From the NCBI GenBank assembly GCA_026225115.1, contig JAMFSE010000036.1, forward strand, positions 1 through 64,000: a DNA stretch of 64,000 nucleotides. Direction: 5' to 3'. The notes under the pieces were generated by a model. It searched no databases and was not told where the DNA came from. It saw only the letters and a list, made by a program, of their open reading frames with translations. Position numbers and translations under genes: made by a program. Each line of letters opens with the position of its first letter. The first letter of the stretch is position 1. Shown here in pieces: positions 26,915 through 50,508 of this stretch. The DNA comes from Rhodovastum atsumiense (GTDB lineage: Bacteria; Pseudomonadota; Alphaproteobacteria; Acetobacterales; Acetobacteraceae).

Positions 26915-28084
26915 TCAGATAAAATCCAAACAATGCTTCGCGATCATGGCCTCTTCGTCTGTAGGGATGACGCGGATTTCTATTTTACTGTCGGACGTGC
27001 TGATGATTGGGGCATTTTGTTCGTTGGCCTCCGGCGAGATTTCAGCGCCGAGCCAGGCGAGTTTTTCGCAGATGGCGGCGCGGACGGGCGGGGCGTGTTC
27101 GCCGATGCCGGCGGTGAAAACCAGGCCGTCCAGGCCGCCGAGGCTGGTTGCGAGTGCGCCGGCGTGGCGGGCGGCCGTATAGGTAAACAATGCGACAGCC
27201 TCCGCCGCGGCCGGGTCCTTGCTGGCAAGCAGATGCCGCATATCCGCTGACAGGCCGGAGACGCCGAGCAGGCCGGATTGCCTGTACAACAAATTGGTAA
27301 TCTCGTCGGCCGACATCCCGCGCGCCTGCATCAAATACAATGCAACGCCGGCGTCCAGGGTGCCGCAGCGCGTGCCCATGACCAGCCCGTCCAGGGCGGT
27401 GAATCCCATGGTGGAATCAACCGATTTTCCATCCAGCATGGCGCAGAGACTGGCGCCGTTGCCAAGATGCGCGGCAATGACGCGGCCCGCCGCCAGCCGC
27501 GGCGCAATCTGGCGCAGCCGCGAGGCGATGTATTCGTAGGAGATGCCGTGGAAGCCGTAGCGCCGTACGCCTTCATCGTGAAGATGGCGGGGCAGCGCAA
27601 AGCGCGTCGCGACTTCCGGCATGCCATGGTGAAACGCCGTGTCGAAACAGCCGATCTGCGGAACATCCGGCCGCAGCGATCGCACCGCCTGCACCGCGGC
27701 AAGATTATGCGGCTCATGCAGCGGCGCCAGCGCATTCAGTTTCGCAAGCTCCGCCAGCCCGCCTCGGTCCAGCCGCACCGGATCCACGAAGCGGGAGCCG
27801 CCATGGACGATACGATGCCCGGTGGCGGCAAGCCGGACCTGGCCCATTTGCGCCTCGATCCAATCCAGAATCGACCCAAACAGGTCCTCATGGCTCAGGC
27901 TTTCGCCCTGCGGCCAGCTTTGCTCATATGGCGCGCGATCAGTCATGCGAATCTTCAGATGCGGTGCTAAGCCGATGCGCTCGATCTCACCCGCGGCAAT
28001 TTTGCAAAGTTCGGAATTTGCCTCAAACAGGGCAAATTTGATACTCGAAGATCCGGCATTCACCGTCAGAATGGCGTCATCCAT
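26915..28084 (-). CDS. ackA: Acetate kinase
   Basis: The 389-residue ASKHA-fold kinase has ILTVNAGSSSIKFALF at the N-terminus, GHRIVHGG near residue 85, the phosphate-binding segments HLGNGASLCAMLDGKSVDSTMGFT and GTRCGTLD, and VFTAGIGEHAP near residue 320. It makes ATP from acetyl phosphate. The ATG at 28084 is chosen because VNAGSSS must be close to the start. It overlaps the phosphotransacetylase-fusion stop by 8 bp, giving an ordered route from acetyl-CoA to acetate and ATP under low oxygen. It is the last gene of the pha/pta operon. Confidence 0.95.
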   Translation of the reverse strand: MDDAILTVNAGSSSIKFALFEANSELCKIAAGEIERIGLAPHLKIRMTDRAPYEQSWPQGESLSHEDLFGSILDWIEAQMGQVRLAATGHRIVHGGSRFVDPVRLDRGGLAELAKLNALAPLHEPHNLAAVQAVRSLRPDVPQIGCFDTAFHHGMPEVATRFALPRHLHDEGVRRYGFHGISYEYIASRLRQIAPRLAAGRVIAAHLGNGASLCAMLDGKSVDSTMGFTALDGLVMGTRCGTLDAGVALYLMQARGMSADEITNLLYRQSGLLGVSGLSADMRHLLASKDPAAAEAVALFTYTAARHAGALATSLGGLDGLVFTAGIGEHAPPVRAAICEKLAWLGAEISPEANEQNAPIISTSDSKIEIRVIPTDEEAMIAKHCLDFI

Positions 28085-29489
28085 GCGGAACCGGCCGGTG
28101 ATGTCCCGCAACCATCGCCGCCAGCGCGCAGGAGGCAATGCGCGTGCGGGCGTCATCGGCGCGGCTGGTCAAGATGATGGGCACGGCGGCGCCGAGTACA
28201 ATGCCGGCGGCATCGGCATTGGCAAGAAATGTCAACTGCTTGGCAAGGATATTGCCGGATTCGATATTCGGTACGACCAGAATATCGGCAAGACCCGCGA
28301 CCGGCGAGGCAATGCCTTTCTGCGTGGCGGCAGCGGCGCTGACAGCATTATCGAAAGCCAGCGGGCCATCGAGCGTACCGCCGGTAATCTGTCCGCGTTC
28401 GGCCATCTTGCACAGGGCGGCGGCATCCAGCGTTGCCGGCATTGCCGGATTAATGGTCTCCACAGCTGCCAGAATCGCAACCAGCGGATTGGCGATCCCA
28501 AGGATATGCGCAAGGTCGATCGCGTTCTGGATGATGCATTGTTTATCCGCCAGGCTCGGCGCGATATTGATCGCGGCGTCCGTCACCAGCAGTGGCCGCG
28601 GGTAGGACGGCACGTCCATGACATAGACATGGCTGAGCCTGCGGCCGGTCCGCAGCCCGGTCTCGGCCATCACTTCATGCAGCAATTCATCGGTATGCAA
28701 AGCGCCTTTCATCAGCATTTTGACATCGCCTTCCCGGGCCAGCGCCACCGCGCGCGCGGCGGCGGCGTGGCTGTGCGGAACATGCTCGATCCAGAACCTT
28801 GAAATATCGATGCCAAACGCCGCGGCCACGGAACGGATTTTGGGCTCGGGTCCGACCAGGATCGGCGTGATGAGCCCGGCCGACGCCGCTTCGGCCGCGG
28901 CTCGCAGCGAGACCTCGTCGCAGGGATGCACGATGGCGGTAAGCAACGGCGTCGCGGCGGATTGCGTTAATAGGGTACGAAATCTTTCATGCCGCAGCAG
29001 CCGCACCTCCGGCAGCACGGTCGCGCGCCGGCTGACTTTTTCCGTCGGCGCCTGCACTGTCGCGGTACCGCGGATAACTTCCACCCCAGCCTGGTTGACG
29101 CAATGGCAATCGAGAATCAGCCGGTGCTTTTCAGGCTGGCGTTCGGTCACTGTCACCGTTGCGGTGATGCTGTCCCCGGGGCTGACCGGCGCCCGGAATT
29201 TCAAATCCTGCGCAAGATAGATGGTCCCGGGACCCGGCAGCTTGGTGCCAAGCACGGCCGAGATCAGCCCGGCCGTCAGCACCCCCTGCGCGATAATGTG
29301 ATGAAACAGGTCGCTGGCCGCGTAGTCGGCATCCAGATGCGCAGGGTTGATGTCGCCGGAGATCACCGAGAACAATGCGATATCATCCAGCGTGATCGTC
29401 TTGGTGAGGCTCGCAGAATCGCCGACGGCTATTTCGTCGAATATGCGATTTTCAAGCAGCTCGGTTTGCATGTCCATGATCGGCTCCAT
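28077..29489 (-). CDS. MaoC-type hydratase fused to phosphate acetyltransferase
   Basis: The 470-residue fusion has a MaoC hot-dog domain at about 10-150 (FSVISGDINPAHLDADYA holds the Asp/His hydratase dyad; HHIIAQGVLTAGLISAVLG follows) and a Pta/Ptb phosphotransacylase domain at about 170-465 (HPCDEVSLRAAAEAASAGLI, MKGALHTDELLHEV, TDAAINIAPSLADKQCI, VPNIESGNILAKQL). It converts acetyl-CoA and phosphate to acetyl phosphate. The MaoC part could supply or consume (R)-3-hydroxyacyl-CoA for the adjacent PHA synthase. Starts at 29489 and 29477 both have ribosome sites; the longer frame to 29780 overlaps phaC and is rejected. Confidence 0.88.
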   Translation of the reverse strand: MEPIMDMQTELLENRIFDEIAVGDSASLTKTITLDDIALFSVISGDINPAHLDADYAASDLFHHIIAQGVLTAGLISAVLGTKLPGPGTIYLAQDLKFRAPVSPGDSITATVTVTERQPEKHRLILDCHCVNQAGVEVIRGTATVQAPTEKVSRRATVLPEVRLLRHERFRTLLTQSAATPLLTAIVHPCDEVSLRAAAEAASAGLITPILVGPEPKIRSVAAAFGIDISRFWIEHVPHSHAAAARAVALAREGDVKMLMKGALHTDELLHEVMAETGLRTGRRLSHVYVMDVPSYPRPLLVTDAAINIAPSLADKQCIIQNAIDLAHILGIANPLVAILAAVETINPAMPATLDAAALCKMAERGQITGGTLDGPLAFDNAVSAAAATQKGIASPVAGLADILVVPNIESGNILAKQLTFLANADAAGIVLGAAVPIILTSRADDARTRIASCALAAMVAGHHRPVPHG

Positions 29490-29538
29490 AATTTCCACAA
29501 TATTTCTTCTGCAAATCTTTCGTAACCCGTACCGAATT

Positions 29539-31290
29539 TCAGCGCTGCAAGACGTATTCTCCGGGCGCCGGCTCCATCGCGGCAAATCCGGCTTCGGGCG
29601 CACCGATATCTGGTGGCGCTGCCGGCGCTCCTGAATGCGCATCAAGCCAGCCCACCCACGCCTCCCACCAGGAGCCTTGCCGGCTGAGTGCTGCGTCCTG
29701 CCAGTCTTCCGGCGGCACAAACAAATCACCGGCTTTGCGTTCGAGCAGGCAGAAATGCCGATTTGCATGCCCCGGTTCACTCACCACGCCGGCGTTATGG
29801 CCGCCTGACGTCAACACAAAAGTCACGTCGCCGGCGTTCAGCTGCAGGAATTTATAGACCGAATGCCAGGGCGCGATGTGATCCGTTTCCGTGCCGATGA
29901 CGAAGACCGGGACATGGATATCGGCCAGCGAGATTTTGCGGCCGCCGGCAAGCATGCGGCCTTCGGCGAGGTCGTTGTCGAGAAAGAGTTTACGCAGATA
30001 TTCCGAATGCATGCGGTAGGGCATGCGCGTCGCGTCCATGTTCCAGGACATCATGTCGTTGGGGTGATCGGCCTCGCCCAGATAATAGCGGCGGACCAGA
30101 TGCGACCAGATGAGTTCGTTGGCGCGCAGCATCTGGAAGGCGCCGGCCATTTGGCTGGAGTCGAGATAGCCCTGGCGCCACATGATGTCGTCGAGAAACG
30201 CGAGCTGGGATTCGTTGATGAAGAGCTGCAGCTCGCCGGCCTCCGTGAAGTCGGTCTGGGCGGCGAGCAGCGTGATGCTGGCGAGGCGTTCGTCGTGGTC
30301 GCGCGCCATGGCGGCGGCGGCGATGGAAAGCAGCGTGCCGCCGAGGCAGTAGCCGGTGGCGTGGATTTTTTTGCTGCCCGCGATCGCACTCACCGCGCCG
30401 ATTGCCGCCATCACGCCGTCCCGGCGATAATCATCCAGCCCGATATCGCGCATCGATGCATCCGGGTTGCGCCAGGAGATGCAGAACACCGTGTAGCCCT
30501 GACCGACCAGATAGCGGATCATCGAGTTTTGCGGCGACAGGTCGAGGATGTAATATTTCATGATCCAGGCTGGGACGATCAGGACCGGTTCGGGATGGGT
30601 GGTTTCGGTCGTGGGCGAATATTGCAGCAATTCGATCAGCGCGTTGCGGAAAACGACCTGGCCCGGGGTGATGGCGACGTCGCGGCCCGGTAGCAACGGC
30701 AAGGGCTGGTTGCTGCCGCCGGCGTTGCGCAGGTCGACCGCCAGATTTGCGGCGCCCGCGCGCAAATTCTCGCCGCCGCTGGCCTGCGTCGCGGCGATCA
30801 CCTCGGGGTTGAGAAACGGCATGTTGGTCGGCGCAACCACGTCCAGCATCTGCCGGGTCAGGAACCCCACGATGCGCGCATTGGCTTTCGAAAGGCCGGG
30901 AATATTGCTGGTGGCATCTGACCAGAAACGTTCTTTGCGCAGAAATTTCTGGGCCGCCAGCGCGGCCACGCCGTGCTGCCAGCCGGGGCCGTTGAAACGG
31001 CGGTCGCCGGCTTCGGGCAGCACCGGTTCAACCGGCAGGCCCAGCGCCTGGCGCCAGATGGCGGTAGCGTCACTCGCGGCCTGGCGGCAGAGTTCGGCCT
31101 GGCGTCCCGGCTGGCCGGCCAGATGGATGCACCAGTCCGCCCAGGCGAGCCCGAGTGCGGCCGGCGACAGGCCGCCGGTGAAGCGGGCTTCGGCGGCGTG
31201 CAGGTTGCGATCGAAGATTGATGCCGCGGTTGGCGCCGGGATTGAGGTTTTGATGTCGGTAGAGATGGCGGGCGAGCCGATGTTGTTCAT
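29539..31290 (-). CDS. Class I-type polyhydroxyalkanoate synthase (PhaC-like)
   Basis: The 583-residue protein has the PhaC N-terminal domain (about 60-200) and an alpha/beta-hydrolase core. The catalytic Cys is in the lipase-like box GYCLGGTLLS near residue 319, followed by the Asp in GTETDHIAPWHSV and the His in SGGHNAGVV. VPAWIMKYYILDLSPQNSMIRYLV and VFCISWRNPD are family hallmarks. It polymerises 3-hydroxyacyl-CoA into storage granules. Its operon partners are a phasin-like protein, an enoyl reductase and MaoC-Pta/AckA rather than phaA-phaB, suggesting PHA serves as an electron and carbon sink under low oxygen. Confidence 0.92.
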   Translation of the reverse strand: MNNIGSPAISTDIKTSIPAPTAASIFDRNLHAAEARFTGGLSPAALGLAWADWCIHLAGQPGRQAELCRQAASDATAIWRQALGLPVEPVLPEAGDRRFNGPGWQHGVAALAAQKFLRKERFWSDATSNIPGLSKANARIVGFLTRQMLDVVAPTNMPFLNPEVIAATQASGGENLRAGAANLAVDLRNAGGSNQPLPLLPGRDVAITPGQVVFRNALIELLQYSPTTETTHPEPVLIVPAWIMKYYILDLSPQNSMIRYLVGQGYTVFCISWRNPDASMRDIGLDDYRRDGVMAAIGAVSAIAGSKKIHATGYCLGGTLLSIAAAAMARDHDERLASITLLAAQTDFTEAGELQLFINESQLAFLDDIMWRQGYLDSSQMAGAFQMLRANELIWSHLVRRYYLGEADHPNDMMSWNMDATRMPYRMHSEYLRKLFLDNDLAEGRMLAGGRKISLADIHVPVFVIGTETDHIAPWHSVYKFLQLNAGDVTFVLTSGGHNAGVVSEPGHANRHFCLLERKAGDLFVPPEDWQDAALSRQGSWWEAWVGWLDAHSGAPAAPPDIGAPEAGFAAMEPAPGEYVLQR

Positions 31291-39168: not shown

Positions 39169-40320
39169 TCAACGCGGCCGGTTGGGTACTGGTGGGTGAC
39201 TGAGATGCCGGGCGGCGCGGATACGGCTGGCGGACTCCATGATCCGTGCTTCGGATAGCCTGCCCTCCAGGATCGCCTGGCGCACCCAGGCGGTGATGTG
39301 CCGCGGCAGGGAAGGATCATAGCCGAACAGATTCTTGATCAGGAGCAGGTCGTTACCCGCGGCGATGGCCTGGATCACCGCCTCCCGGCGCGTCATGGTC
39401 CCGCTGACCGCGCCCATGTCCAGATCATCCGTCAGAATGACGCCGGTGAAGTTGAGCTTGCGGCGCAGCAGGTCCGTGACGATGCGCCGCGAAAGGGTTG
39501 CCGCCGCGCCGCCGGGTTCGAGTGCGCGCAGGCGAAGATGTCCGCCCATCACCATCATCGGCTGGCCTTTTCGGATCAGGCTTTCGAACGGCGCCAGCTC
39601 CGCCGGCGTCCAGAGGGCGGAGATATCGGCGGCGCCGTCATGGCTGTCGTCCTGCGCGTGTCCATGGCCTGGAAAATGCTTCGCGGCGCATAGAATGCCG
39701 GCCTCCGCGAAGCCCTCCAGAAAGGCCGAGGCGTAGGCGGCGATCTGGCCGAGGCCGCCGAACGAGCGCCCGTGCCGGCCGATGGCCGGATTATCCGGAA
39801 CATCGATATCGACAACCGGCGCCAGGTTGATGTCGAAGCCGAGCGCCGCCAGCTCGCCGCCGGCCCGCGCATAGAGCGCCTTCGCTTGGTCCGGCGTCAT
39901 GCTTGCCGCAACCTCCCGCGCGGGTGGCAAAGGCGTAAAGCCGTGGGCGGCATGAAGCCGCTGGACCACACCGCCTTCGTGGTCGATTGCCAATAGGGGC
40001 GCCAATAGCGGATCGCAACCGGCGCGGAACAATGCGATGAGGCTGCCAACCTCATCCCGGCTGCCGATGTTCTGCAGGACGAAAAAGACACCGCCGGCGC
40101 GCCCGGCGCGCAATTGCGCCGCGAGCAGGCGGGCGGAGATCGCGTTGGTGCTGTGGCCGTAGAAACCCAGCATCAGCATCTGGCCGATGGCAAAGTCCAG
40201 CGGGTCGCGGGCAGGGGTGTTGCGGAGCCAGGCGAGGGGAATGGCGAGCGCGCCGGCGAGCAGCGCCGATCCCGCCTTGATCTGCCTGATGAGCCGGCGC
40301 GCAACCCTGTGGCGCGTCAA
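39169..40320 (-). CDS. GH3 beta-N-acetylhexosaminidase (NagZ-like) with N-terminal anchor
   Basis: The 383-residue glycoside hydrolase family 3 enzyme has DFAIGQMLMLGFYG, LAIDHEGGVVQRL, FDINLAPVVDIDVP, the His-bearing loop AAKHFPGHGHAQDDSH and the nucleophile Asp in VILTDDLDMGAV. NagZ removes terminal GlcNAc from wall fragments. Before the catalytic domain, residues about 12-30 (AGSALLAGALAIPLAWLR) form a hydrophobic segment after a basic stretch, suggesting a membrane anchor or signal, whereas standard NagZ is cytoplasmic. The TTG at 40318-40320 is preferred because it overlaps the stop of the upstream gene (TTGA); a longer frame to 40404 would overlap it by 88 bp. Confidence 0.82.
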   Translation of the reverse strand: MTRHRVARRLIRQIKAGSALLAGALAIPLAWLRNTPARDPLDFAIGQMLMLGFYGHSTNAISARLLAAQLRAGRAGGVFFVLQNIGSRDEVGSLIALFRAGCDPLLAPLLAIDHEGGVVQRLHAAHGFTPLPPAREVAASMTPDQAKALYARAGGELAALGFDINLAPVVDIDVPDNPAIGRHGRSFGGLGQIAAYASAFLEGFAEAGILCAAKHFPGHGHAQDDSHDGAADISALWTPAELAPFESLIRKGQPMMVMGGHLRLRALEPGGAAATLSRRIVTDLLRRKLNFTGVILTDDLDMGAVSGTMTRREAVIQAIAAGNDLLLIKNLFGYDPSLPRHITAWVRQAILEGRLSEARIMESASRIRAARHLSHPPVPNRPR

Positions 40321-43300
40321 ATTGCGCCTGGCGTGGGCGCCATCACCCCGGCCAGGCGGCGGACCACATGCTGGGCAAGGGCGCGCACCGCCGGTTCGAC
40401 GCATTCATGGCCGTGACTGCTCTCCACCAGATCGATCGTATAGCCGGCCGGAAAAGCTGTTCGGAAAGGCGCTTCGCCGCCGTCCTGCCGGCGCGGGTTG
40501 CGGAAGCTGCCGTCACCGCAAATGAGCGCCACCTTGCCGGGGTAGAACCGCGGCTGCGTCGGTTCGATCAAGACCAGCAAGGCGATGTTGCGGCCGCGTT
40601 TCGAGAGCGCCTCGGCGACCATCTGCGCGATCACGCCGCCTTGGCAAACCCCCGCGATCACCAGCACGCCGCGCGGATTTATCTGCTCGATTTCCGCGAC
40701 ATAATGCGCGGTGAGTTGCCGCAGGCCGCCGGGCCCCTGGTCGATCACCAGATGGCCCGACCGCATCGCATGCGTGCGGTATGACGCCGGCAGCCAGCGT
40801 GCGAGATCGCTGAACTCGCGTTCGATCTGGCAGCAGAGGAACAGATCGCGATCCGCCATGGCGGCGCCAAGGCTGCTGATCAGGCTGTCCGGGTGCCGGC
40901 GCTCGCCCGGCCAGTTCGCGCAAATTGCGAATAATTGCCGGAAGATGCGGGTGTCCTTGAAGCCTGAGCCCTGCGGCAATGGGCCATTGTCCCGATCCCA
41001 GAATAATTCGGCAAGGGCCACGGCCATTTTCGGAATGGTTGTCAGCCGGCCGAGATAGCCGGGCGGAATGGTCACCTGAAATTCGGTCTCGATGGCGATC
41101 ACCAACTGCAATCCGGCAAGGGAATCGCCGCCGAGCTGGGCGAAGCGGTCGATCATGCCGACATCGCGGTCGAGTTGCAGCAGGTCGCGCCACAGCTCGG
41201 CCAGGCGGGTTTCCAGCGCGGTATTGGGCGGCAGGAATTCATCGGCCCAGGTGATGATCCGGGTGGCGTGCTCCGCCAGCAGCCGGCGGCGGTCTTTTTT
41301 GCCGCTGGGGGTCATCGGCATGCCGGCGATCGGCACGATATGCGCCGGGATTGCGCTCGGAGGCAGCCAGGCGGCCAGTTGTTCCCGGAAGGCGGCGGCA
41401 TCGAAGCGAAAACCTGGTGCTGGGAGAACAAAGCAGACGAGGGCTTTGCGTTCGCCGGACAAAACGCCGGCCGCGGCATCGGCGATGCCTTCCTGGCGCC
41501 GGGCGGTTTGCTCGATCTCTGCAAGTTCAAGCCGGTTTCCGAGCAGTTTTATCTGGTCGTCGGCGCGTCCGACGAAAGACAAGGCTCCTGACGGCGCGCG
41601 GCGGACCATGTCGCCGGTGCGGTAAAACCGGCCCTGGGGAGTGCGCGGGAAACGCTGCGCGGTCTCCTCGGGCTGCCCGATATAGCCTTCGGCAAGCCCG
41701 ATCCCCGAGAGCCATAGCTCGCCGATTTCGCCGTCCGGCAGCGGGCACCGCGCCGCGTCGAGCACATGCGCCGCCAGATGCCCGAGTGCCGTGCCGATGG
41801 TGACCTCCTGTTCCGGCCGGCACAGGTCAGCGGTGGCATAGATGGTTGCTTCGGTCGGGCCGTAGACGTTGAAGAACCGCCGGCCAGGCGGTGCCCATGC
41901 GCGCATCAGCGCGGACGGACAGGCCTCGCCGGCGGCGATGATGACCTGCAGTGCTGGCAGGCTGCGGGGTTTCATGCTGGCCAGAACCGTCGGCGTGACG
42001 CAGAGATGGGTGACCTCCGCGCGCGCCAGAAATTCGCCGAGCCGGTCTCCCACCATCGGGCGCGTGGCGCCGATGACCAGCGCGGCGCCGGCCGCCAGCG
42101 TGGCGCAGAGCTCGAACAGCGAGACGTCGAAACCAATCGAGGTGTTGAGCGCCATGCGCGACCCGGGCCCGATGCCGAAGCGGTGGACCGCATCGCCGAG
42201 CAGCGCGAAGAGCGAGGCGTGCGAAACCGTGATGCCCTTCGGCTGGCCGGTTGATCCGGATGTGAAACAGATATAGGCGGGAGCGGTTTTGCCGGGACCG
42301 GGCGGGACAGGATGTTTTCCCGAATTCAGCGCGTCGAACCGCAGGTTGGGGCAGCCGGTTTGCGCATCGCGCGTGATGCAGGCGGCGGCGCCCGCGCGCT
42401 CCAGCATGAAGGCGATGCGGGCCGCGGGGAGCGCCGTATCGAGCGGCAAATAGGTGGCGCCGGCCTTCAGGATGCCCAGCATGGCAACGACCAGGTCGAG
42501 CGATTGCGGCAGGCGCACACCGATGACGCGGCCTTTGAGGCCGTTGGCCGCGAGGTTACCCGCAACCGTATCGCTTGCCGCATCCAGCCAGGCGTAGGAA
42601 ACGGCACCCCCCGGATGATGCAGCGCCGGGCTGGCGGGATCGGCACGCACGGCGCGCCGGAACAGGTCGACAATTGATGCCGGCGGACGCAGGCGGCCGC
42701 TCACCCGGGTGATCCAGCTGCGCCGGCTGGCCCCGGCAGGGCGCGCCGCTCGCCCTGAAAGCCTTGCATGCAGGCGCTGCGCGACATCCTCCATGCCGCG
42801 CCCGCCCATGACCAGCACGAAGTCGCCCGCTTTGAGGTCGGCCGGGGCATACTCGATGAGATCGCCGGTATTTCCGCGCAGTTGGACGGCCGTGCCAAGG
42901 CGCTGCAGCCCTTCGGCGATCAGCCAGCTGCCGGCCGCGGCGCCGAGTTCTCCGCCGCTGTCGAGGTCGAGCAGCAGCACGGCATCGGCGTTTGAGAGGC
43001 TCTCCGCAAATGCCGCGTGCAGGCGCTGCAGGCGCGAGCCGAGCAGCGGCTGAAACACCGCGATGAGGCGCGCGCCGGGCGCCGCTGCCCTTGCGGTCCG
43101 CAGACTGGCGAGGATTTCGGCGGGATGATGCGCGTAGTCGTCGACGATCCGTACGCCCGCGGCAACGCCGATCTCCTCCCAGCGGCGGGCAACGCCGGTG
43201 AACTGCGCCAGTCCGCGGGCGATGGTCTGGAACGGCAGGTCGATCGCCAGCCCGGCCGCGACCGCGGCCAAAGCGTTCCGGCGCATATGGTCGCCCGGAA

Positions 43301-44087
43301 GGGGGAGCCGCACGGCGCCGGCCTCGCTGCCGCGGATACGGACCGAGAAGGCGGCGGGCTCGGGCGCCGCTGAGATATCGCAATCAGCGTGCAGTCCGAA
43401 GCTGGTCACCGGGCCGAGCGCGGCGCGGATCCGGGCGATGCCCGGGTCTTCGCCCGAGACGATGCGGGTGCCGGCGCGGTTCGCGAAATCCGCGAAGGCG
43501 GCATCGAGTTTGGTTTGCGAGGCGTAATGGTTCACGTGCTCGTCGTCGATATTGGTGATGATCGCGATATCGGGATTGAAGCAGTCGAGATTTTGGAACG
43601 CCTCGCAGGCTTCGATGACGGCAAAGGCGCCCGCACCGGCCCGCGCCTGGGTATTTCCGAGGCAACGGATATCGGCCCCCAGGATGAAGCTGGGATCGAG
43701 CCCGGCGGCATCGAGCACGCAGGCGATCATCGCGGCGGTGGTGGACTTGCCGTGCGAGCCGGCGACCATCAGGCTGCGTTGCGGCTGCGCCAGGGCGTCC
43801 AGGCATTCGGCGCGGCGCAGGAGGGGAATCCGGCGGGATCGTGCGGCCTCGATCTCGACATTGTCGGTGGCGATCGCATCGCTGACGACCACCAGTTCAC
43901 TGCCGTCCACGCTTGCCGCCTGATGGCCGTAGGTGATCGATGCGCCTGCGGCCTGCAGGCGCTGGCAGGCGGGTGAGTCCCTTGTGTCGCTGCCGGAGAC
44001 GCTGCGCCCGGTGCCGATGAGGTAATGCGCCAGCGCCGCCATGCCGGCGCCGCCGATACCGATCAGGTGCAGGCGCGACGGGATCAT
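40317..44087 (-). CDS. MurC-type ligase fused to an NRPS adenylation-carrier-thioesterase module
   Basis: One uninterrupted 1256-residue frame. Residues 1-450 resemble MurC/Mpl ligases: Rossmann loop HLIGIGGAGM (7-16), ATP loop GSHGKSTT (110-117), ITNIDDEHVNHY (177-188), RRWEEIG then VDDYAHHPAEI (301-325). The MurC FQPHRY segment reads FQPLLGS. Residues about 470-940 are an amino-acid adenylation domain: FTSGSTGQPKG (A3), FDVSLFEL (A4), NVYGPTEATIY (A5), YRTGD (A7), Lys930 in A10. A carrier domain follows (LGGDSL, Ser989). The C-terminus is an alpha/beta-hydrolase thioesterase with Cys1148 (GVCQGG) in place of Ser. There is no condensation domain. By eye the specificity residues read D-V-F-C-I-A-V-I-Y-K, no family I know. 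The product is unknown. The ATG at 44087 overlaps the DUF218 stop (TGATG). Confidence 0.85.
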   Translation of the reverse strand: MIPSRLHLIGIGGAGMAALAHYLIGTGRSVSGSDTRDSPACQRLQAAGASITYGHQAASVDGSELVVVSDAIATDNVEIEAARSRRIPLLRRAECLDALAQPQRSLMVAGSHGKSTTAAMIACVLDAAGLDPSFILGADIRCLGNTQARAGAGAFAVIEACEAFQNLDCFNPDIAIITNIDDEHVNHYASQTKLDAAFADFANRAGTRIVSGEDPGIARIRAALGPVTSFGLHADCDISAAPEPAAFSVRIRGSEAGAVRLPLPGDHMRRNALAAVAAGLAIDLPFQTIARGLAQFTGVARRWEEIGVAAGVRIVDDYAHHPAEILASLRTARAAAPGARLIAVFQPLLGSRLQRLHAAFAESLSNADAVLLLDLDSGGELGAAAGSWLIAEGLQRLGTAVQLRGNTGDLIEYAPADLKAGDFVLVMGGRGMEDVAQRLHARLSGRAARPAGASRRSWITRVSGRLRPPASIVDLFRRAVRADPASPALHHPGGAVSYAWLDAASDTVAGNLAANGLKGRVIGVRLPQSLDLVVAMLGILKAGATYLPLDTALPAARIAFMLERAGAAACITRDAQTGCPNLRFDALNSGKHPVPPGPGKTAPAYICFTSGSTGQPKGITVSHASLFALLGDAVHRFGIGPGSRMALNTSIGFDVSLFELCATLAAGAALVIGATRPMVGDRLGEFLARAEVTHLCVTPTVLASMKPRSLPALQVIIAAGEACPSALMRAWAPPGRRFFNVYGPTEATIYATADLCRPEQEVTIGTALGHLAAHVLDAARCPLPDGEIGELWLSGIGLAEGYIGQPEETAQRFPRTPQGRFYRTGDMVRRAPSGALSFVGRADDQIKLLGNRLELAEIEQTARRQEGIADAAAGVLSGERKALVCFVLPAPGFRFDAAAFREQLAAWLPPSAIPAHIVPIAGMPMTPSGKKDRRRLLAEHATRIITWADEFLPPNTALETRLAELWRDLLQLDRDVGMIDRFAQLGGDSLAGLQLVIAIETEFQVTIPPGYLGRLTTIPKMAVALAELFWDRDNGPLPQGSGFKDTRIFRQLFAICANWPGERRHPDSLISSLGAAMADRDLFLCCQIEREFSDLARWLPASYRTHAMRSGHLVIDQGPGGLRQLTAHYVAEIEQINPRGVLVIAGVCQGGVIAQMVAEALSKRGRNIALLVLIEPTQPRFYPGKVALICGDGSFRNPRRQDGGEAPFRTAFPAGYTIDLVESSHGHECVEPAVRALAQHVVRRLAGVMAPTPGAI

Positions 44088-44674
44088 CAAAAACCGCCGA
44101 TGTCGCCTTGCAGCGCGTAGGTGCCGATGGCCTGCAGTTCCCGCAGCACGAACGCCCGCCCGGTTTGCGTTTGCCACCAGGTCGCCGCCGGCGGGTCATC
44201 CGGCGCTTCGGAGGGCCGGGCCAACAGGCGCAGATGTGCTGGCCAATGGGCGCGCGCGGTCATGATCGCGCGGCGCGCGTGGAAGGGTTTCGAGACGATT
44301 GCAACGCTGTTGATATGCTCCCAGCCAAAGCGCCCGGCGATGATGGGGTGCGATAAAACAAAGTTGTCGCGGGTGTTCGTTGCAGCAGTTTCAAGCAGGA
44401 TGGCCTCCGCGGGCACGCCGCGCGCGAGCGCGTAATCCCGGAAAATTTCGCTCTCCGGGATGTCCTGCGGCGCCGGTCCATGGCCGGAAATCATGATTGC
44501 TGGGGTGAGCCTTTGGCGATAGAGCGCGATCGCCGGGTCCATGTTGCTGGGGGTTGGGCACCCCAGAACGAAGCAAAGGTCTACGGGCGCCGGCGGATCC
44601 TCGAGGAACAGGAAGGCGGTGATCGCGCTGCGTGATGCGAGGAAATCCGGTGCCGGCGCGTTCCCATGGGTCAT
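44087..44674 (-). CDS. DUF218 (YdcF/SanA/ElyC-like) family protein
   Basis: The 195-residue protein has the DUF218 fold markers: an early hydrophobic strand VDLCFVLGCPTPSN, PAIMISGHGPAPQD, SEIFRDYALARGVP with the conserved Glu, LETAATNTRDNFVLS with TxxN, and VAIVSKPFHARRA with the conserved His-Ala-Arg. Relatives are linked to envelope integrity and lipid-carrier or peptidoglycan precursor handling in E. coli. This one has no N-terminal membrane helix, so it is probably cytosolic. It is first in the operon with the MurC-NRPS fusion and NagZ-like genes. Confidence 0.83.
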   Translation of the reverse strand: MTHGNAPAPDFLASRSAITAFLFLEDPPAPVDLCFVLGCPTPSNMDPAIALYRQRLTPAIMISGHGPAPQDIPESEIFRDYALARGVPAEAILLETAATNTRDNFVLSHPIIAGRFGWEHINSVAIVSKPFHARRAIMTARAHWPAHLRLLARPSEAPDDPPAATWWQTQTGRAFVLRELQAIGTYALQGDIGGF

Positions 44675-44904
44675 GTCCCTGCCTTTCCGGCGTCGTTAAT
44701 ATTGCGGGCCTGATCGTTGGGGTTGCAGCGTTTTGCGGCAACCGGGCGCGTCAATCAGGCTCCGACGAGAAGCGAAATACTGACGATCGCTTTGGTCCTT
44801 GGCAAGGGATCGCGCGCGCCCGGCCGGGAAGCCTTGGATGGCCGATGCTTCTGGCGCCGCCCGTGCCGGCGTGCAAGAGTTACGCGCAAACCTGGAGGGA
44901 ACCA

Positions 44905-45642
44905 ATGAACGCCAGCCTTTATGCCGTTGCGCCCCAGGTGTCCGCGGGCGATTGTGACTTCTACCACAGCATGGATATTCCCGGCCACGGACATGTCGAC
45001 GGGCAATGGGATCTGCGCGCCGGCATCGATGCCTATGTCGGTGGCGTCGACTTCGCGGGCAAGCGGGTTTTGGAGATCGGGCCGGCCAGCGGCTTCCTCA
45101 CGATGGAGATGGAAAAACGCGGTGCCGATGTCGTCGCGCTGGAGGTCCAGGACGACCCCGGATGGGATTTCGTGCCGCAGCCCGCCGCTGTCCTGAAGCC
45201 GATGTTTCCCGCGCGCCGGCTGCACATGGCGCGGATCAAGGCGTCCTTCTGGTTCACGCACCAGGCACACCGCTCGCGCGCCAAACTGCTGTACGCCGAT
45301 GCCTACAACATCCCGGAGATCGGGCGCTTTGATATCGCGGTGATGGGAAGCGTGCTGCTGCATACCAGGGCGCCGCTGCAAATTATCGAACAATGCGCCC
45401 TGCGGGCTGACAGCATCGTGGTCACCGATCTGCTGGTCCCGGAAATCGAAGGCACGCCGGTTTGCCGGCTGGTGCCGACCGCGGATAACAAAGTCACCGA
45501 CACCTGGTGGGAGTTTTCATCGACCCTGATCAGCCAGTTCCTGGGTGTGCTCGGCTATCGCCGGATCGAGACGACGACCCATGCCCAGCAGCATATGCAC
45601 CGGACATTCGAGCTGTTTACCGTTGTTGGGCGGCGCGACTAA
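44905..45642 (+). CDS. SAM-dependent methyltransferase of an envelope/glycan cluster
   Basis: The 245-residue class I methyltransferase has the AdoMet loop VLEIGPASGFLTMEME (residues about 51-66), VVALEVQD with the acidic ribose-binding residue, and FDIAVMGSVLLHTRAPLQI. YHSMDIPGHGHVDGQWDLR near the start resembles the tRNA-U34 carboxymethyltransferase CmoB-like/DUF1698 group and O-antigen methyltransferases. The substrate may be a sugar or lipid-linked glycan, given the glycosyltransferase next to it. The ATG at 44905 follows GGAGGGA. A 230-bp region upstream, divergent from the DUF218 gene, should hold promoters; no clear boxes were found. Confidence 0.82.
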   Translation: MNASLYAVAPQVSAGDCDFYHSMDIPGHGHVDGQWDLRAGIDAYVGGVDFAGKRVLEIGPASGFLTMEMEKRGADVVALEVQDDPGWDFVPQPAAVLKPMFPARRLHMARIKASFWFTHQAHRSRAKLLYADAYNIPEIGRFDIAVMGSVLLHTRAPLQIIEQCALRADSIVVTDLLVPEIEGTPVCRLVPTADNKVTDTWWEFSSTLISQFLGVLGYRRIETTTHAQQHMHRTFELFTVVGRRD

Positions 45643-45748
45643 CGGCGGCGGACGCGACGTTAGAATAGCCCGGCATCGGGACAGCGGTTGAGCCTCGGCA
45701 TAGGTTCCGGCTATTGCCTGCAATCGGCATAAACCCCACACTGCGCCT

Positions 45749-48661
45749 ATGGGTGGACTTGCAAAAACTTTAGAGCGGGCCGAAATCTCCTTCCGCGCGC
45801 TCACGCCCAACGGCGGCCTTGAACGGCTGGTGGTGGCCAGGGCGATTTTGCGCCATGGATTGCCGCGCCGCGCCACCGCCGGTAGCCTCGCCAGACTGCA
45901 ATTGCGAATTTTTGAATCGCTCCGCGATCGGCGTCAGATCCAATATGGCGACTGGCTGCGGCTGTACGCGCCGCAAGACGCGCCTATTGCGGCGAATGAA
46001 GGCCAGATTGCGTCGGCCTGCGCCGTGCTGGTTCCGGCCGGCGCATCCGTGGCGGCGTTGCGCCGCTGCTTGCGGGCACTCGGGCAGCAGGCGTGTCTGC
46101 CACGCAAGGTAATCATTCTGTGCCCAACATGGCTTGGCCGGTTAAAGGCTGCCCTGGCATGCCGTCTCGAACACCGGGCCGTGACGGTGGTCCGCAATAC
46201 CGCCGGTGCCGGGCTGCGGCTGCAAGGCGATGTGCTGTTGATGAAAGGCGCGCCGATCCTGCGGCCGCGCGCACTGGCTCGCCTGACGGCGGAATTGCGG
46301 GCGCATCCCGCAGCCCAGGCGGCTTATGGCGATGAGGACCAGCTGCGCGATTCACGCTTCCGGCGGCCATTCTTCAAGCCGGATTTCTCGCCCGTTCTTG
46401 GCCGGCAGTATGACTACGCAGGGAACGTCATTTTGCTCCGCCGCGGTTTCTTTGAACGGACGGTGCTGCCGGAACTGACCACCGCCGGCCTGCCATCCTG
46501 GATCGGCGATTCGGCGCTGCGGCGCGACGCGATCATTCACTTGCCCGAAATCCTGCATGCCGAACCCTCGGCGCGCCGGCTTTCATATGTTGCGGGACCG
46601 GCATTTGATGCCGCGCTGGCGGCGGGGTGCCGCCGCACGCCGTGCCTGCCCAGGGTCGCCATCATCATCCCGACCAAGGACCGTGCCGAGCTGCTGCGAG
46701 ACTGCGTCGCGAGCATCTTCGAGATGACCGCGTATGATCGCGCAAAGCTCGAACTGGTCATTGTGGATAATGGCTCGAAGGCGGCGGACGCCTGCAGCCT
46801 GCTTGCCGAATTGCAGGACCGGCCGGCGATCACCGTGCTGCGCCGGCCGGGGCGTTTCAATTATTCCTATTTGTGCAACCAGGGTGCGGCGGCGGCGGCG
46901 GCGGATGTTCTGGTGTTCCTGAACAATGACACGCTGATCCGCGACCCGGACTGGATCGCGAAGCTGGCGGGCGCCGTCGCACTGCCTGGTACCGGCGTGG
47001 TCGGGTGCAAGCTGCTCTATGCCGACGGCCTGGTGCAGCATGCCGGCGTCATCCTTGGGATCCAGGGGCTGGCCGGTCATGTCGGCGTCGGCGCTGCCGA
47101 GGATGACGGGGTTTACTTCGATCTCGCAAACCATACGCGTGAGGTCTCGGCCGTTACCGGGGCGCTGGTGGCGATAGACAGCGTGCTGTTCGAACGCGCC
47201 GGCGGGTATGATGAAAGGCTAGCCGTGGCGTTCAGCGACACCGCTTTGTGTCTCGCCTGCAATCACCTCGGCCATCAGACGCTATGCCTGCAATCCGCGC
47301 TCGCCTTTCACCTGGAAGGCGCTTCCCGCGGACGCGACGATGCGGATCCGGCCAAGCGCCTGCGGCTGTTGCAGGAGTGCCAGCAAATCCTCTCGATATG
47401 GTCCGGCTTCAAGTCTGATCCGTTCTACAATTCCAACCTCAGCCTGCTGAAACCTTACGAACTGGCGCATCCGCCGCGGAATTTCCTGCCGGCGGAAGGC
47501 GGCGACAGGGCGCCGCATGTTCTGATGCTGAGCTGGACATTTCAATTCGGGTCAGGAATTGCCGTTGTCGTTGATATTCTGGCGCGCGCCTTGCAGGCGA
47601 AAGGGGCCAGGGTCTCGATTGCGGCACCCGCAAATGCGGGGGACCTGGCATGGCCCGCCGGGGAGCGCCATGACGTGAGCACGGTGGACGCGGCGGTGGC
47701 GCTGGCGGCGAAGATCGGCGCCGATGTGGTCATGGTGCATACGCCGCCATTTTATGCGGTGTTTCGTTACCTGCCGGCGCATATCGCCGGCATTGCCTAT
47801 GATCATGGTGAACCGCCCCCGGAACTGTTCCCGGATGCGGTGGAACGCCGCCTGGTGAACGGCGATAAATACGCCGCCATGCGGCATGCGGATCGCGTGC
47901 TGGCGATTTCGGACGCGGTCCGCGACGGCAGCCCGTTTTTCGATTGCGGCCTGCTGCCGCTAGGCAACACGCATCTGGCGCGCTGGAACGAGGGGTCGCC
48001 GGGGCTGCGCCTCAAGGCGCGCGCTTTGCGTGGCTGGCACGGTCAGCTGGTCATCCTGAATGTCTGCAGGTTCTTTGAGGCCGAGCGATATTACAAGGGG
48101 ATCGATTTCTATATGAACCTGCGGCGGGCCGTGGAATTATTGCATCCCGAGGTGGCGGCGCTGACGCGATTCGTGCTGACGGGACGCGGCGCGTCACAGG
48201 ATGCGGCCTATGCCTCCGCCGGCGGGATCGACGTCATCCTCAGCCCATCCGACGACGCCCTCGCAGGGCTCTACCACGCCGCCGACAGATATATGAATTT
48301 CAGCCGCTGGGAGGGGTACAATCTCGGCATTGGCCAGGCGCTTGCAATGGGCCTGCCGGTTTTGGCTTCGGACATTCCGGCGCACCGCGCCTTCGGGATT
48401 CCCGTTGCACGATCGCTGCAGGACGCCGTCGAAGCGGTGGTGCAGGCCTTTTATCATCCGCAACGCTCGGAGGGGATGGAGCATCGGCAACCCGCGCTGC
48501 AGGAATGGGGGCCAAGCGCCGAGCGGCTTTGGGTGGAGATCGAACAGCTGCGCCTGCGCGACCCGGGATCCGGCCCTGGGTTTTTGGCGGGCGCCACCGC
48601 AGCGGCCGGTCCGATCCCGCTGCGTGCGCAAGCCCCGCTGGACGCAGCCGGGGCGCCGTGA
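45749..48661 (+). CDS. Large glycosyltransferase with GT2 and GT4 domains
   Basis: The 970-residue protein has three regions. About 90-290 is a GT2-like domain with weak signatures (YGDEDQLRDSRFRRPFFKPD, typical of long O-antigen transferases). About 300-560 is a full GT2 domain (VAIIIPTKDRAELLRDCVAS, LVIVDNGSK, LVFLNNDTLIRDPDW as the metal-binding NDT segment). About 590-940 is a GT4-type domain (SWTFQFGSGIAVVVDILARA, FVLTGRG, FSRWEGYNLGIGQALAMGLPVLASD). Such proteins build O-antigen or exopolysaccharide chains on the cytosolic membrane face. It overlaps the following membrane protein gene by 4 bp (GTGA). Confidence 0.88.
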   Translation: MGGLAKTLERAEISFRALTPNGGLERLVVARAILRHGLPRRATAGSLARLQLRIFESLRDRRQIQYGDWLRLYAPQDAPIAANEGQIASACAVLVPAGASVAALRRCLRALGQQACLPRKVIILCPTWLGRLKAALACRLEHRAVTVVRNTAGAGLRLQGDVLLMKGAPILRPRALARLTAELRAHPAAQAAYGDEDQLRDSRFRRPFFKPDFSPVLGRQYDYAGNVILLRRGFFERTVLPELTTAGLPSWIGDSALRRDAIIHLPEILHAEPSARRLSYVAGPAFDAALAAGCRRTPCLPRVAIIIPTKDRAELLRDCVASIFEMTAYDRAKLELVIVDNGSKAADACSLLAELQDRPAITVLRRPGRFNYSYLCNQGAAAAAADVLVFLNNDTLIRDPDWIAKLAGAVALPGTGVVGCKLLYADGLVQHAGVILGIQGLAGHVGVGAAEDDGVYFDLANHTREVSAVTGALVAIDSVLFERAGGYDERLAVAFSDTALCLACNHLGHQTLCLQSALAFHLEGASRGRDDADPAKRLRLLQECQQILSIWSGFKSDPFYNSNLSLLKPYELAHPPRNFLPAEGGDRAPHVLMLSWTFQFGSGIAVVVDILARALQAKGARVSIAAPANAGDLAWPAGERHDVSTVDAAVALAAKIGADVVMVHTPPFYAVFRYLPAHIAGIAYDHGEPPPELFPDAVERRLVNGDKYAAMRHADRVLAISDAVRDGSPFFDCGLLPLGNTHLARWNEGSPGLRLKARALRGWHGQLVILNVCRFFEAERYYKGIDFYMNLRRAVELLHPEVAALTRFVLTGRGASQDAAYASAGGIDVILSPSDDALAGLYHAADRYMNFSRWEGYNLGIGQALAMGLPVLASDIPAHRAFGIPVARSLQDAVEAVVQAFYHPQRSEGMEHRQPALQEWGPSAERLWVEIEQLRLRDPGSGPGFLAGATAAAGPIPLRAQAPLDAAGAP

Positions 48662-50508
48662 GGCTTGGCCACCGGCGCTTCGACTGGCTGCTCCCCTGGG
48701 TCATCTGCCTGATCGGAATTCTGATTTATCATCGCTATACGATTCTGAGCGGCTTTGACCTGGTGCAGGCGGATTTTGGCGACAGCCGGTTCATCGCATT
48801 CCTGCTCGAGCATTGGAACGATGTGGTTCAGGGCCGCGCCCGCTGGCAGTCGCCGCTGATCTTCTATCCGGTGCAGGGAACGCTGGCATATTCGGACATG
48901 CTGCTGGGAATGGGGTTGCCGCATGCGGTGCTGCGCCGCGCTGGCCTTGGCGTTTTCACGGCGATGAATGTGCAATTGATTTTGCTGACCGGGCTCGCCT
49001 TTGCGTCCTGCCATGCTTTCCTGCGGCGCGGGTTTCAGCTGAGCCTGCCTGCTTGTTGCGCGGGCGCCTATTTCTTCGCATTCGGCTGGCCGCGGTTTGC
49101 GGAACTGGTCCATGTGCAATTGCAGTTCACCGCGCCGCTGCCGCTGATGGCGCTGTTTGCATTGCAGTTTCTTCGCGACGGGCTGACGCTTTCGCGTCTG
49201 CATTGCTTTTTGATCCTGTCCGGGCTGGCGGGGCTGGAGGCGTTGCTCTTCATAACTACGTCGTATTACGCGCTGTTTTTCGGCCTGGGTCTCGGGGTCG
49301 CCATTTTGCTGTGCCTGATGGCACCGGGTCCGCGGTTGCAAATGGCGGCGGTGCTGCGCCGTCATGTCCTGCCGCTGGCCGGCGCGACCTTGCTGCTGGT
49401 TGTTCTGCTGATTCCGGTGGCGCAGCTTTATTTGCCCGTGATGCATGCGAGCGGCGGCCGGCAATGGCGCGAGGTCAACCCGTTCCTGCCGCATCCCACC
49501 GACCTGTTCTGGATGGGCACCGAGAACTACGCCTGGGGTTGGCTGTTCAGCCGGTTTCCGGCGCGCGCGCTGGCGAACTGGCCCGGACTGCGCCTGGGAA
49601 CCGGGCTTGCCGTGTCGGTGTTTTGGATCGCGGCCATTGGCTGGGCAACATGCCTGGCATGGGACTCACGCGGCGGGCGCGGCGCCGGCCGCCGCGGCGC
49701 CGTTCCGGCAACCACCGGGGCGGCGGCGATTTTCATTTTATCGGGCGCCATTCTGCAATTTTTGATGCTGAAATTGCCGCTGCATCTGACGTTGTGGCGC
49801 ATTATTTTCGAGGTGTTGCCCGGTTTCGGCGGCATACGGGCGGTGTCAAGGCTGCAGCTGGTGGTCATGTTGCCGATGGCGCTGGCAATCGCGCTCGGCA
49901 CTGAATGGCTCTGGGATGAGGGCAGGCATCGCCTTTGGCTGCGGCCGGCACTCGCGGCCGTGCTGCTGTTTGGCGCCGCCGAGCAGACCGGTGCGGTCTA
50001 TCTTTATTCCGGGCGGCAGGCAGAGGCGCTGGCATGGCGCGTCGCCAATGCTGTCCCTAGCGGCTGCCGTGCCTTCTATGTCGTGGCTCCGGCCGAGGTG
50101 ATCCCTGCCGCGCCGCCCATCGTCAGCGAGAAAAACTTTGATGCGCGGGCTTACTTGCAGGCAAATCCGGATGTGGCGCGGGCCTGGCACGGAACCGCGT
50201 GGCAGCATTATGTGCTGTTCGGCCGCGCCGAGCATCGTTACCTCGATCCGGCAGCCGCTCAGCGGTATGACGCATTGCATTTTTTCTATGCCTATACGGT
50301 GCCGCTGGCGGCGGAGCTGATCGGCAAGCCTGCCGTAAATGGGTTGAGCGGTTGGGAGCCGCCCGGCTATGATCTGGGCGATTCTCTGGCGCCTGACGCA
50401 TCCACCCGGCTGCATCGCTGGCTCGCGCGATACGGATTATCTGTCGGCAGCGTGTGCAACCTGGCCATCCCGCTCACGCGCTCGGACCTGCCGGAACGCG
50501 GCAGGTGA
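48658..50508 (+). CDS. Polytopic membrane protein, possibly a GT-C type glycosyltransferase
   Basis: The 616-residue protein starts at a GTG overlapping the upstream stop. It has about 10-11 hydrophobic helices between residues 8 and 440 (first WLLPWVICLIGILIYHRYTI). The DFGDSRF motif in the first outer loop, with acidic residues, is what one sees in lipid-linked sugar transferases of the GT-C type. After the last helix a soluble tail includes FDARAYLQANPDVARAWHG, a short module found repeatedly in polysaccharide enzymes (F-D-x-x-x-Y-L-x-x-N-P-D-V). Function is inferred from the neighbouring glycosyltransferase; no exact family was recognised. Confidence 0.72.
   Translation: MRLGHRRFDWLLPWVICLIGILIYHRYTILSGFDLVQADFGDSRFIAFLLEHWNDVVQGRARWQSPLIFYPVQGTLAYSDMLLGMGLPHAVLRRAGLGVFTAMNVQLILLTGLAFASCHAFLRRGFQLSLPACCAGAYFFAFGWPRFAELVHVQLQFTAPLPLMALFALQFLRDGLTLSRLHCFLILSGLAGLEALLFITTSYYALFFGLGLGVAILLCLMAPGPRLQMAAVLRRHVLPLAGATLLLVVLLIPVAQLYLPVMHASGGRQWREVNPFLPHPTDLFWMGTENYAWGWLFSRFPARALANWPGLRLGTGLAVSVFWIAAIGWATCLAWDSRGGRGAGRRGAVPATTGAAAIFILSGAILQFLMLKLPLHLTLWRIIFEVLPGFGGIRAVSRLQLVVMLPMALAIALGTEWLWDEGRHRLWLRPALAAVLLFGAAEQTGAVYLYSGRQAEALAWRVANAVPSGCRAFYVVAPAEVIPAAPPIVSEKNFDARAYLQANPDVARAWHGTAWQHYVLFGRAEHRYLDPAAAQRYDALHFFYAYTVPLAAELIGKPAVNGLSGWEPPGYDLGDSLAPDASTRLHRWLARYGLSVGSVCNLAIPLTRSDLPERGR

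Follow-up and report, generated by a model that had tools for sequence, protein, structure and literature searches.

Fusion of a MurC-type ligase to a nonribosomal peptide synthetase module in a rare bacterial cassette that might conjugate amino acids to a UDP-sugar

What might an enzyme make that carries, in one chain, a ligase of the peptidoglycan pathway and a module of a nonribosomal peptide synthetase (NRPS)? The question is raised by a gene in a 64,000-nucleotide stretch of Rhodovastum atsumiense DNA (contig JAMFSE010000036.1, positions 1 to 64,000; hereafter the window). A preliminary description, made from the letters of the window, had noted a single 1256-residue frame in which a MurC-type ligase is followed by adenylation (A), peptidyl carrier protein (PCP) and thioesterase (TE) domains, with no condensation (C) domain, and had suggested as its first idea that a carrier-activated amino acid is joined to an acid linked to a uridine diphosphate (UDP)-sugar. 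Here we follow up that interpretation, which is partly supported, and favour its first idea, although as a tentative reading of an enzyme whose architecture is itself secure.

The frame lies on the minus strand, an orientation that had been left unstated, and runs from an ATG at 44087 to a TGA at 40319-40317; an alternative GTG start gives a longer frame, to 44177. Its product contains the motifs GIGGAGM, GSHGKSTT, DDYAHHPAEI, FQPLLGS, GGDSL (Ser989) and GVCQGG (Cys1148), among which FQPLLGS bears out the reported alteration of the MurC segment FQPHRY. Pfam recognizes Mur_ligase (residues 6-102, 2e-21), Mur_ligase_M (108-278, 3e-14) and Mur_ligase_C (301-428, 5e-19) in the Mur part, and AMP-binding (476-802, 8e-64), PP-binding (961-1021, 3e-7) and Thioesterase (1091-1179, 1e-8) in the NRPS part, in agreement with the domain reading given earlier. 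Neither the window protein nor any of its six full-length relatives, described below, has a Pfam Condensation match, so the missing C domain is confirmed as well.

Those six relatives, encoded in other genomes or on plasmids, have the same domain order in one frame at 35-56% identity to the window protein, and pairwise identity across all seven fusions is 35-69%. A scan of genome contigs, from which the 80 top loci of 587 were kept, yielded a single full-length relative, in Roseococcus pinisoli (locus L020, 56%). A search of 72,556 plasmid records, 333 of which had a match, placed plasmid pAMI4 of Paracoccus aminophilus JCM 7686 among the 20 matches listed; the encoded protein (WP_020952399.1) is annotated 'amino acid adenylation domain-containing protein' and also has the Mur domains. 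Whole-genome searches added G750 and G616, from the GTDB family of the Roseococcus genome (full-length match in 3 of 397 genomes, Roseococcus included), and G1165 and G980, from a sample of the phylum (3 of 398, the window's own genome included). The fusion occurs in 1 of 347 genomes of the G980 family and in 1 of 385 of a class sample, namely the window's own; among the matches listed for the window's genus, only its own genome, of 37, has it in full length. With so few genomes of each sample matching over the whole protein, the gene is of rare and scattered occurrence. The two named carriers, R. pinisoli and P. aminophilus, both belong to the Alphaproteobacteria, and G1165 and G980 share the window's class.

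The window comes from a fragmented assembly (149 contigs), which could raise the suspicion of a sequencing or assembly artefact or of a decayed gene, and the preliminary description had itself pointed to a possible assembly join at the ligase–adenylation boundary (42,670-42,740). As six further copies share the domain order, two of them in named records, and the core motifs are intact, we exclude a join at that boundary, reject the artefact and consider this whole class of explanation extremely improbable. The fusion is real, far beyond chance.

Which Mur ligase has been recruited? Scored alone against NCBIfam models, the window protein reaches 345.9 bits for murC (TIGR01082, cut-off 335.1) and 155.8 bits for mpl (cut-off 388.7). 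Of the earlier label 'MurC/Mpl-like' the first half therefore stands and the second falls: we reject an Mpl identity on score, and by its sequence the domain is of MurC type, not Mpl type. An AlphaFold2 model of the window Mur domain, built from 38 sequences (the domains of the window and Roseococcus, and 36 of the 74 MurC rows at our disposal; predicted local distance difference test (pLDDT) score 94.6), has as its best solved match the substrate-bound MurC 1p3d_A (Z 51.5, root-mean-square deviation 1.9, 442 aligned residues, 32% identity), against Z 32.4 and a deviation of 5.0 for Mpl 3hn7, an apo structure with rotated domains, and Z 36.7 for the truncated Mpl 3eag.

The ligase is also distinct from the housekeeping enzyme. 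An ordinary murC, whose presence the preliminary description had proposed to check, lies elsewhere in the host genome (G000:C102:8362-9843); in a tree that included five of the fusions, it branches with the murC genes of its genus and of Roseococcus and away from the fusions. Our Mur controls numbered 84 (89 rows minus two fusion copies, L020 and L103, and three MurD-like rows); in a quick-method tree of the seven fusions and 44 of these controls, from which three long-branch controls had first been dropped, the seven Mur domains form one clade with a Shimodaira–Hasegawa-like approximate likelihood-ratio test (SH-aLRT) support of 99, as do the five in the other tree. The clade adjoins two long-branched MurC of Armatimonadota and stands apart from murC of the host's genus and Roseococcus, for which reason we reject a recent copy of the host's own murC as its origin.

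The residues of the active site fall into two sets, which we numbered as in Haemophilus influenzae MurC by mapping through our alignment. Asp49 (a UDP contact), Lys129, Glu173, His198, Asp345, His348 and Arg380, a set that takes in the P-loop lysine, the metal-binding glutamate and histidine and the UDP-binding aspartate, are kept in all seven fusions and all 84 controls. Thr130 is serine in four fusions; of the uracil contacts, Ile/Val87 is present in all seven and His70 in five. Judged by these residues, Mur catalysis looks intact in every fusion. The contacts of the incoming amino acid have changed. As listed in the literature (PMC3060825), these are His376, Arg377, Arg380, Tyr346 and His348. 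Position 346 reads Y/Y/F/F/C/C/F across the seven fusions (tyrosine kept in 2/7). His376 is kept in none (L/L/Q/Q/Q/Q/L; controls H 78, Q 6), nor is Arg377 (leucine in six, serine in one; controls R 54, T 19, L 11), and the neighbouring Tyr378 is glycine or histidine (controls Y 77, F 6, P 1). The combined loss of His376, of Arg/Thr/Lys377 and of Tyr/Phe378 marks 7/7 fusions, versus 0/84 control MurC. Near Glu173, all seven fusions have Ala163 and Leu167, versus mostly Ser/Tyr and Phe in the controls.

In the NRPS half, the window protein scores 349.6 bits against the amino acid adenylation model TIGR01733 (cut-off 317.4), and AMP-binding and PP-binding exceed their Pfam cut-offs in all seven fusions. 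Asp654 and Lys930 of the A domain and Ser989 of the carrier are invariant in a five-row alignment and were found by eye in the other two proteins. In a tree with 44 other A domains, those of the window, Roseococcus, Paracoccus and G1165 (group A) form one clade (95/91); those of G750, G616 and G980 (group B) form another (100/100), which branches among A domains of other NRPSs (96/81 and 96/94). Forcing all seven together costs 21.2 log units (approximately unbiased test, p-AU 0.033). Since the A domains split while the Mur domains stay in one clade, an exchange of A domains between the groups is suggested, though not proved, and with it a change of amino acid beside a constant Mur step. The ten-residue specificity codes, read by the motif anchors of GrsA and not by a prediction tool, point to no nameable substrate; they are DVFCIAVIYK (window), DVASICVIYK (Roseococcus) and DVGSIAAVEK (Paracoccus and G1165) in group A, and DSHGGGYIYK (G750), DSHGGGYVYK (G616) and DAHGMGFIYK (G980) in group B.

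In the TE domain, an elbow cysteine is present in all seven fusions and in three other NRPS proteins (L100, L104 and L105); a histidine is at the expected place in the seven fusions and L105, and is missing in L100 and L104. The TE profile matches 4zxh (6.5e-13), and in a small TE tree the ten Cys rows (support 89/87) stand apart from the Ser thioesterases of other NRPSs, with the fusions not resolved as a clade. Because the nearest Cys-TE relatives of full length among the loci compared, from Rhodobacter CZR27 (L105:6615-10502) and Methylomagnum (L104:8579-14635), both run C-A-PCP-TE, the Mur ligase, on sequence comparison, occupies the position of their C domain. The third relative (L100:3-3737) is incomplete and reaches the contig end. 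L105 and L104 sit in plasmid regions with glycosyltransferases, and the L104 protein also carries sulfotransferase and TPR parts; these three synthetases are possible sugar-aminoacylating enzymes in their own right.

The fusion is the second gene of a cassette (Table 1). A DUF218/YdcF gene lies directly upstream in 7/7 loci, overlapping or abutting the fusion; it was identified by Pfam in five loci and by alignment and blastp in the other two (56% and 51% identity to the window's). The window protein scores 79.4 bits against PF02698 (cut-off 27.6, exceeded in all five proteins scanned) and its profile matches YdcF 3ca8 (3e-4); the quality of a structure model based on just two sequences was too low for use (pLDDT 53.4). 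At the thresholds applied, this DUF218 subfamily was seen only with the fusion: at 1e-30 in 1 of 385 class genomes, the window's own, with up to eight candidates scored per genome, and at 1e-6 among plasmids only on pAMI4. ElyC, a DUF218 protein, is needed for peptidoglycan synthesis in Escherichia coli, and YdcF is predicted to be cytoplasmic, with a fold resembling adenine nucleotide alpha hydrolases (PMC3879167). SanA is reportedly tied to peptidoglycan synthesis as well.

Table 1. Features of the cassette in the window and of the gene that takes the place of GH3 in two other loci
Feature	Position	Strand	Basis or remark
MurC-A-PCP-TE fusion, 1256 aa	40317..44087	-	frame and Pfam
MurC-type ligase domain, aa 1-443	42759..44087	-	Pfam, alignment, structure model; catalytic residues retained, contacts of the amino acid changed
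Adenylation domain, about aa 470-940	41268..42680	-	Asp654, Lys930 kept
Carrier (PCP) domain, about aa 955-1025	41013..41225	-	Ser989 codon 41121-41123
Cys-type thioesterase domain, about aa 1045-1246	40350..40955	-	Cys1148 codon 40644-40646, His1225
DUF218/YdcF-type protein, 195 aa, first cassette gene	44087..44674	-	Pfam; TGA shares base with fusion ATG (TGATG)
GH3 (NagZ-like) beta-N-acetylglucosaminidase-type protein	39169..40320	-	Pfam, profile match
Convergent methyltransferase, 3' end of two group-B fusions	L129:12351-13205; L150:8410-9261	+	sequence comparison

A GH3 gene lies 3' of the fusion in four of the seven loci (window, Roseococcus, Paracoccus and G1165). In the window its open frame extends to 40404, and its start is likely the TTG at 40320, which overlaps the fusion stop (TTGA). 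The best profile matches are GH3 beta-N-acetylglucosaminidases (aligned with 6k5j), although the protein falls below the cut-off of the beta-N-acetylhexosaminidase (NagZ-type) equivalog (156.9 versus 207 bits). By eye, all four GH3 proteins have the motifs KHFPG(H/Q)G...DSH and TDD(L/V)DM, whose aspartate and histidine we take to be the catalytic pair, and at 1e-50 the Paracoccus protein finds only pAMI4 among plasmids. GH3 is missing beside the fusion in G616 and in G980, the latter looked at around the fusion only; there a convergent methyltransferase gene takes its place (41% identity between the two). The G750 contig stops about 107 bases past the fusion, so its 3' neighbour is unreadable. 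G616 and G750 each have just one, weaker GH3 match elsewhere, resembling the second match in G421 and in the host (G000), whose second GH3 gene is on C72. As no 19-residue window exceeds 1.72 in a crude Kyte–Doolittle scan of the four GH3 proteins, membrane anchoring or export is unsupported. The cassette is probably cytoplasmic. PADLOC gave no match for the DUF218 or GH3 proteins. By analogy, both partners fit wall-sugar chemistry, given the role of ElyC and the profile matches of GH3.

Comparison of the window with the six fusion loci, one of them split into two pieces, and the two C-A-PCP-TE loci left the three cassette genes as the only ones clearly in common; everything else that matched was a two-component protein, an antisense frame or, in one weak case, a glycosyltransferase. 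We consequently reject the idea that the methyltransferase and glycosyltransferases lying divergently at 44632-50508 are linked to the cassette. The gene and its cassette are apparently mobile: pAMI4 is a plasmid, integrase parts (two frames) adjoin the Roseococcus cassette, a serine recombinase lies upstream of the G750 fusion, and the G980 fusion, which has a transposase nearby, sits on a contig of 68 kb in a genome of six contigs. No such signs were seen in the parts scanned for G616, G1165 and the window. The cassette (39169-44674) has a G+C content of 67.6%, and the whole window 62.1%.

Other features of the host and the window can be noted briefly. The host genome has two frames of the ACPS family (phosphopantetheinyl-transferase type) on C57 and C120, one AcpS-sized and one of 234 residues; another NRPS frame, of 1515 residues, lies a few kb from the latter (region G000:C120:8126-14630; L002, L152). 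In the window, a 667-residue frame on the plus strand (48505-50508), which Pfam leaves unmatched even at E 0.05, adjoins a double glycosyltransferase (45749-48661); two Orn/Lys/Arg decarboxylase genes lie close together on opposite strands (14156-16519, minus; 18217-20484, plus); and a frame that joins a MaoC-like domain with a phosphate acetyl/butyryl transferase (28077-29780, minus) overlaps a PhaC-type polymer synthase frame (29539-31290).

How could these parts work together? From the domain order, the conserved partners and the pattern of kept and lost residues, we infer the chemical steps, the substrate, the amino acid (X) and the product as follows. In standard NRPS logic an A domain activates an amino acid and loads it onto the carrier; the intact motifs suggest that the A domain here would do so with X. 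The MurC-type domain would phosphorylate the lactyl carboxylate of UDP-N-acetylmuramic acid (UDP-MurNAc), or of a close relative, and the amino group of carrier-bound X would attack the activated acid. The Cys-thioesterase would then free UDP-MurNAc-X by hydrolysis or hand it to another acceptor. DUF218 would work before or after the Mur step, as would the NagZ-like GH3 in those members of the family that have it. The loss of His376, Arg377 and Tyr378 agrees with an amino acid that has its carboxylate masked as a thioester, and the two ACPS-family frames of the host also speak for the proposal. We tentatively favour it in its general form, in which the Mur domain replaces a C domain and the cassette conjugates an amino acid to a UDP-sugar of the muramic-acid type. 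With a little more reserve, we also entertain a fuller version, in which the Mur ligase serves as the condensation domain of an NRPS, joining UDP-MurNAc to a tethered amino acid to give a family of muramoyl-amino acids varied by A-domain exchange and spread on plasmids with a dedicated DUF218 protein.

Several points weigh against this proposal. His348 and Arg380, two of the five amino-acid contacts, are kept in every fusion. A free amino acid, its carboxylate exposed, might therefore still be accommodated, and the changes at 376–378 could instead mean a different free amino acid. Single changes of this kind occur in ordinary MurC (Gln376 in 6/84, Leu377 in 11/84). His70 is lost in 2/7 fusions. 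X is not nameable from the A-domain codes, and the exchange of A domains rests on a p-AU of 0.033 with weak deep branches. Thioesterase exceeds its Pfam cut-off in only 4/7 proteins (window, Roseococcus, G616 and G980), with a weaker match in three, and the third residue of the triad is not assignable in all rows. We know of no reaction for DUF218, and since the G616 and G980 fusions have no GH3 gene beside them, the core step does not require GH3.

In a rival view the two halves act separately: the Mur domain would couple UDP-MurNAc to a free amine, or to some amino acid that is not L-Ala, and A-PCP-TE would add a second aminoacyl group to that product or to another acceptor, such as a sugar hydroxyl or amine. 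The retained His348 and Arg380 agree with such a division, as do the Cys-TE relatives L104 and L105, whose glycosyltransferase surroundings make sugar aminoacylation sensible. It requires two acceptors, however, and accounts less well for a ligase in the C-domain position and for four domains in one chain in 7/7 cases; we judge it rather unlikely. A second rival takes up the tailored wall precursor that the preliminary description had named as its other idea: UDP-MurNAc-X made by the cassette would be extended by MurD-F and built into peptidoglycan, changing position 1 of the stem, for example as protection against a wall-targeting compound or enzyme. A MurC-type ligase beside DUF218 and NagZ-like partners suits this role, and a sporadic, partly mobile distribution is common for protective traits. 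A plain MurC variant would suffice for the purpose without A, PCP and TE domains, though, and beyond the three cassette genes no wall-precursor gene is common to the window and the compared loci, which leaves wall tailoring improbable in our view. The Mur domain might also act on another carboxylated UDP-sugar or nucleotide, yielding a secondary metabolite unrelated to the wall. His70 is lost in two fusions and Ala163 and Leu167 are uniform in all seven, as this would allow; the overall model and the remaining residues are MurC-like, however, and we give the idea little credence.

If the favoured proposal is true, it would mean a new bond-making route in a nonribosomal synthetase, with acyl-phosphate chemistry replacing the C domain, and would connect the precursors of peptidoglycan directly with the enzymes of natural-product synthesis. 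It would predict an undescribed class of metabolite and give the poorly understood DUF218/YdcF family a defined partner with a testable substrate. The P. aminophilus genome paper lists pAMI4 as a dispensable plasmid readily removed from its host (PMC3925955), so strains with and without it can be compared; the terms 'peptide synthetase', 'non-ribosomal' and 'peptidoglycan' do not occur in the paper's main text.

The preliminary description knew of no system with this arrangement, and the papers listed in our searches of the open-access literature likewise include no report of a fusion between a Mur ligase and an NRPS module. The parts are of known kinds; their arrangement and the bond-forming logic that it implies are new to us. 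With MurC the fusion shares the three-domain fold, the P-loop and the metal and UDP contacts; it differs in being joined to A-PCP-TE, in forming its own clade, in the replaced residues 376–378 and in its dedicated DUF218 partner. Mpl, used in wall recycling, likewise joins a larger amine to UDP-MurNAc (PMC3060825); the window protein differs in its score far below the mpl cut-off and in a weaker structural match, in part because apo 3hn7 is open. MurC-Ddl fusions (NF011171) also join MurC to another peptide-forming enzyme, although MurC is paired in them with a D-Ala-D-Ala ligase instead of an NRPS module, and the window protein matches that model over the Mur part only. In Desulfovibrio aespoeensis a Mur ligase gene beside a cyclodipeptide-synthase gene has been predicted to act in non-ribosomal peptide making (PMC2922099), but as a separate gene with other partner enzymes. 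Closest in the NRPS half are the single-module C-A-PCP-TE synthetases with a Cys thioesterase, namely L105, L104 and the solved AB3403 and ObiF1 (a catalytic cysteine is given for ObiF in PMC6668435), which share the A-PCP-TE order and the elbow cysteine; where they have a condensation domain, the window fusion has a MurC-type ligase.

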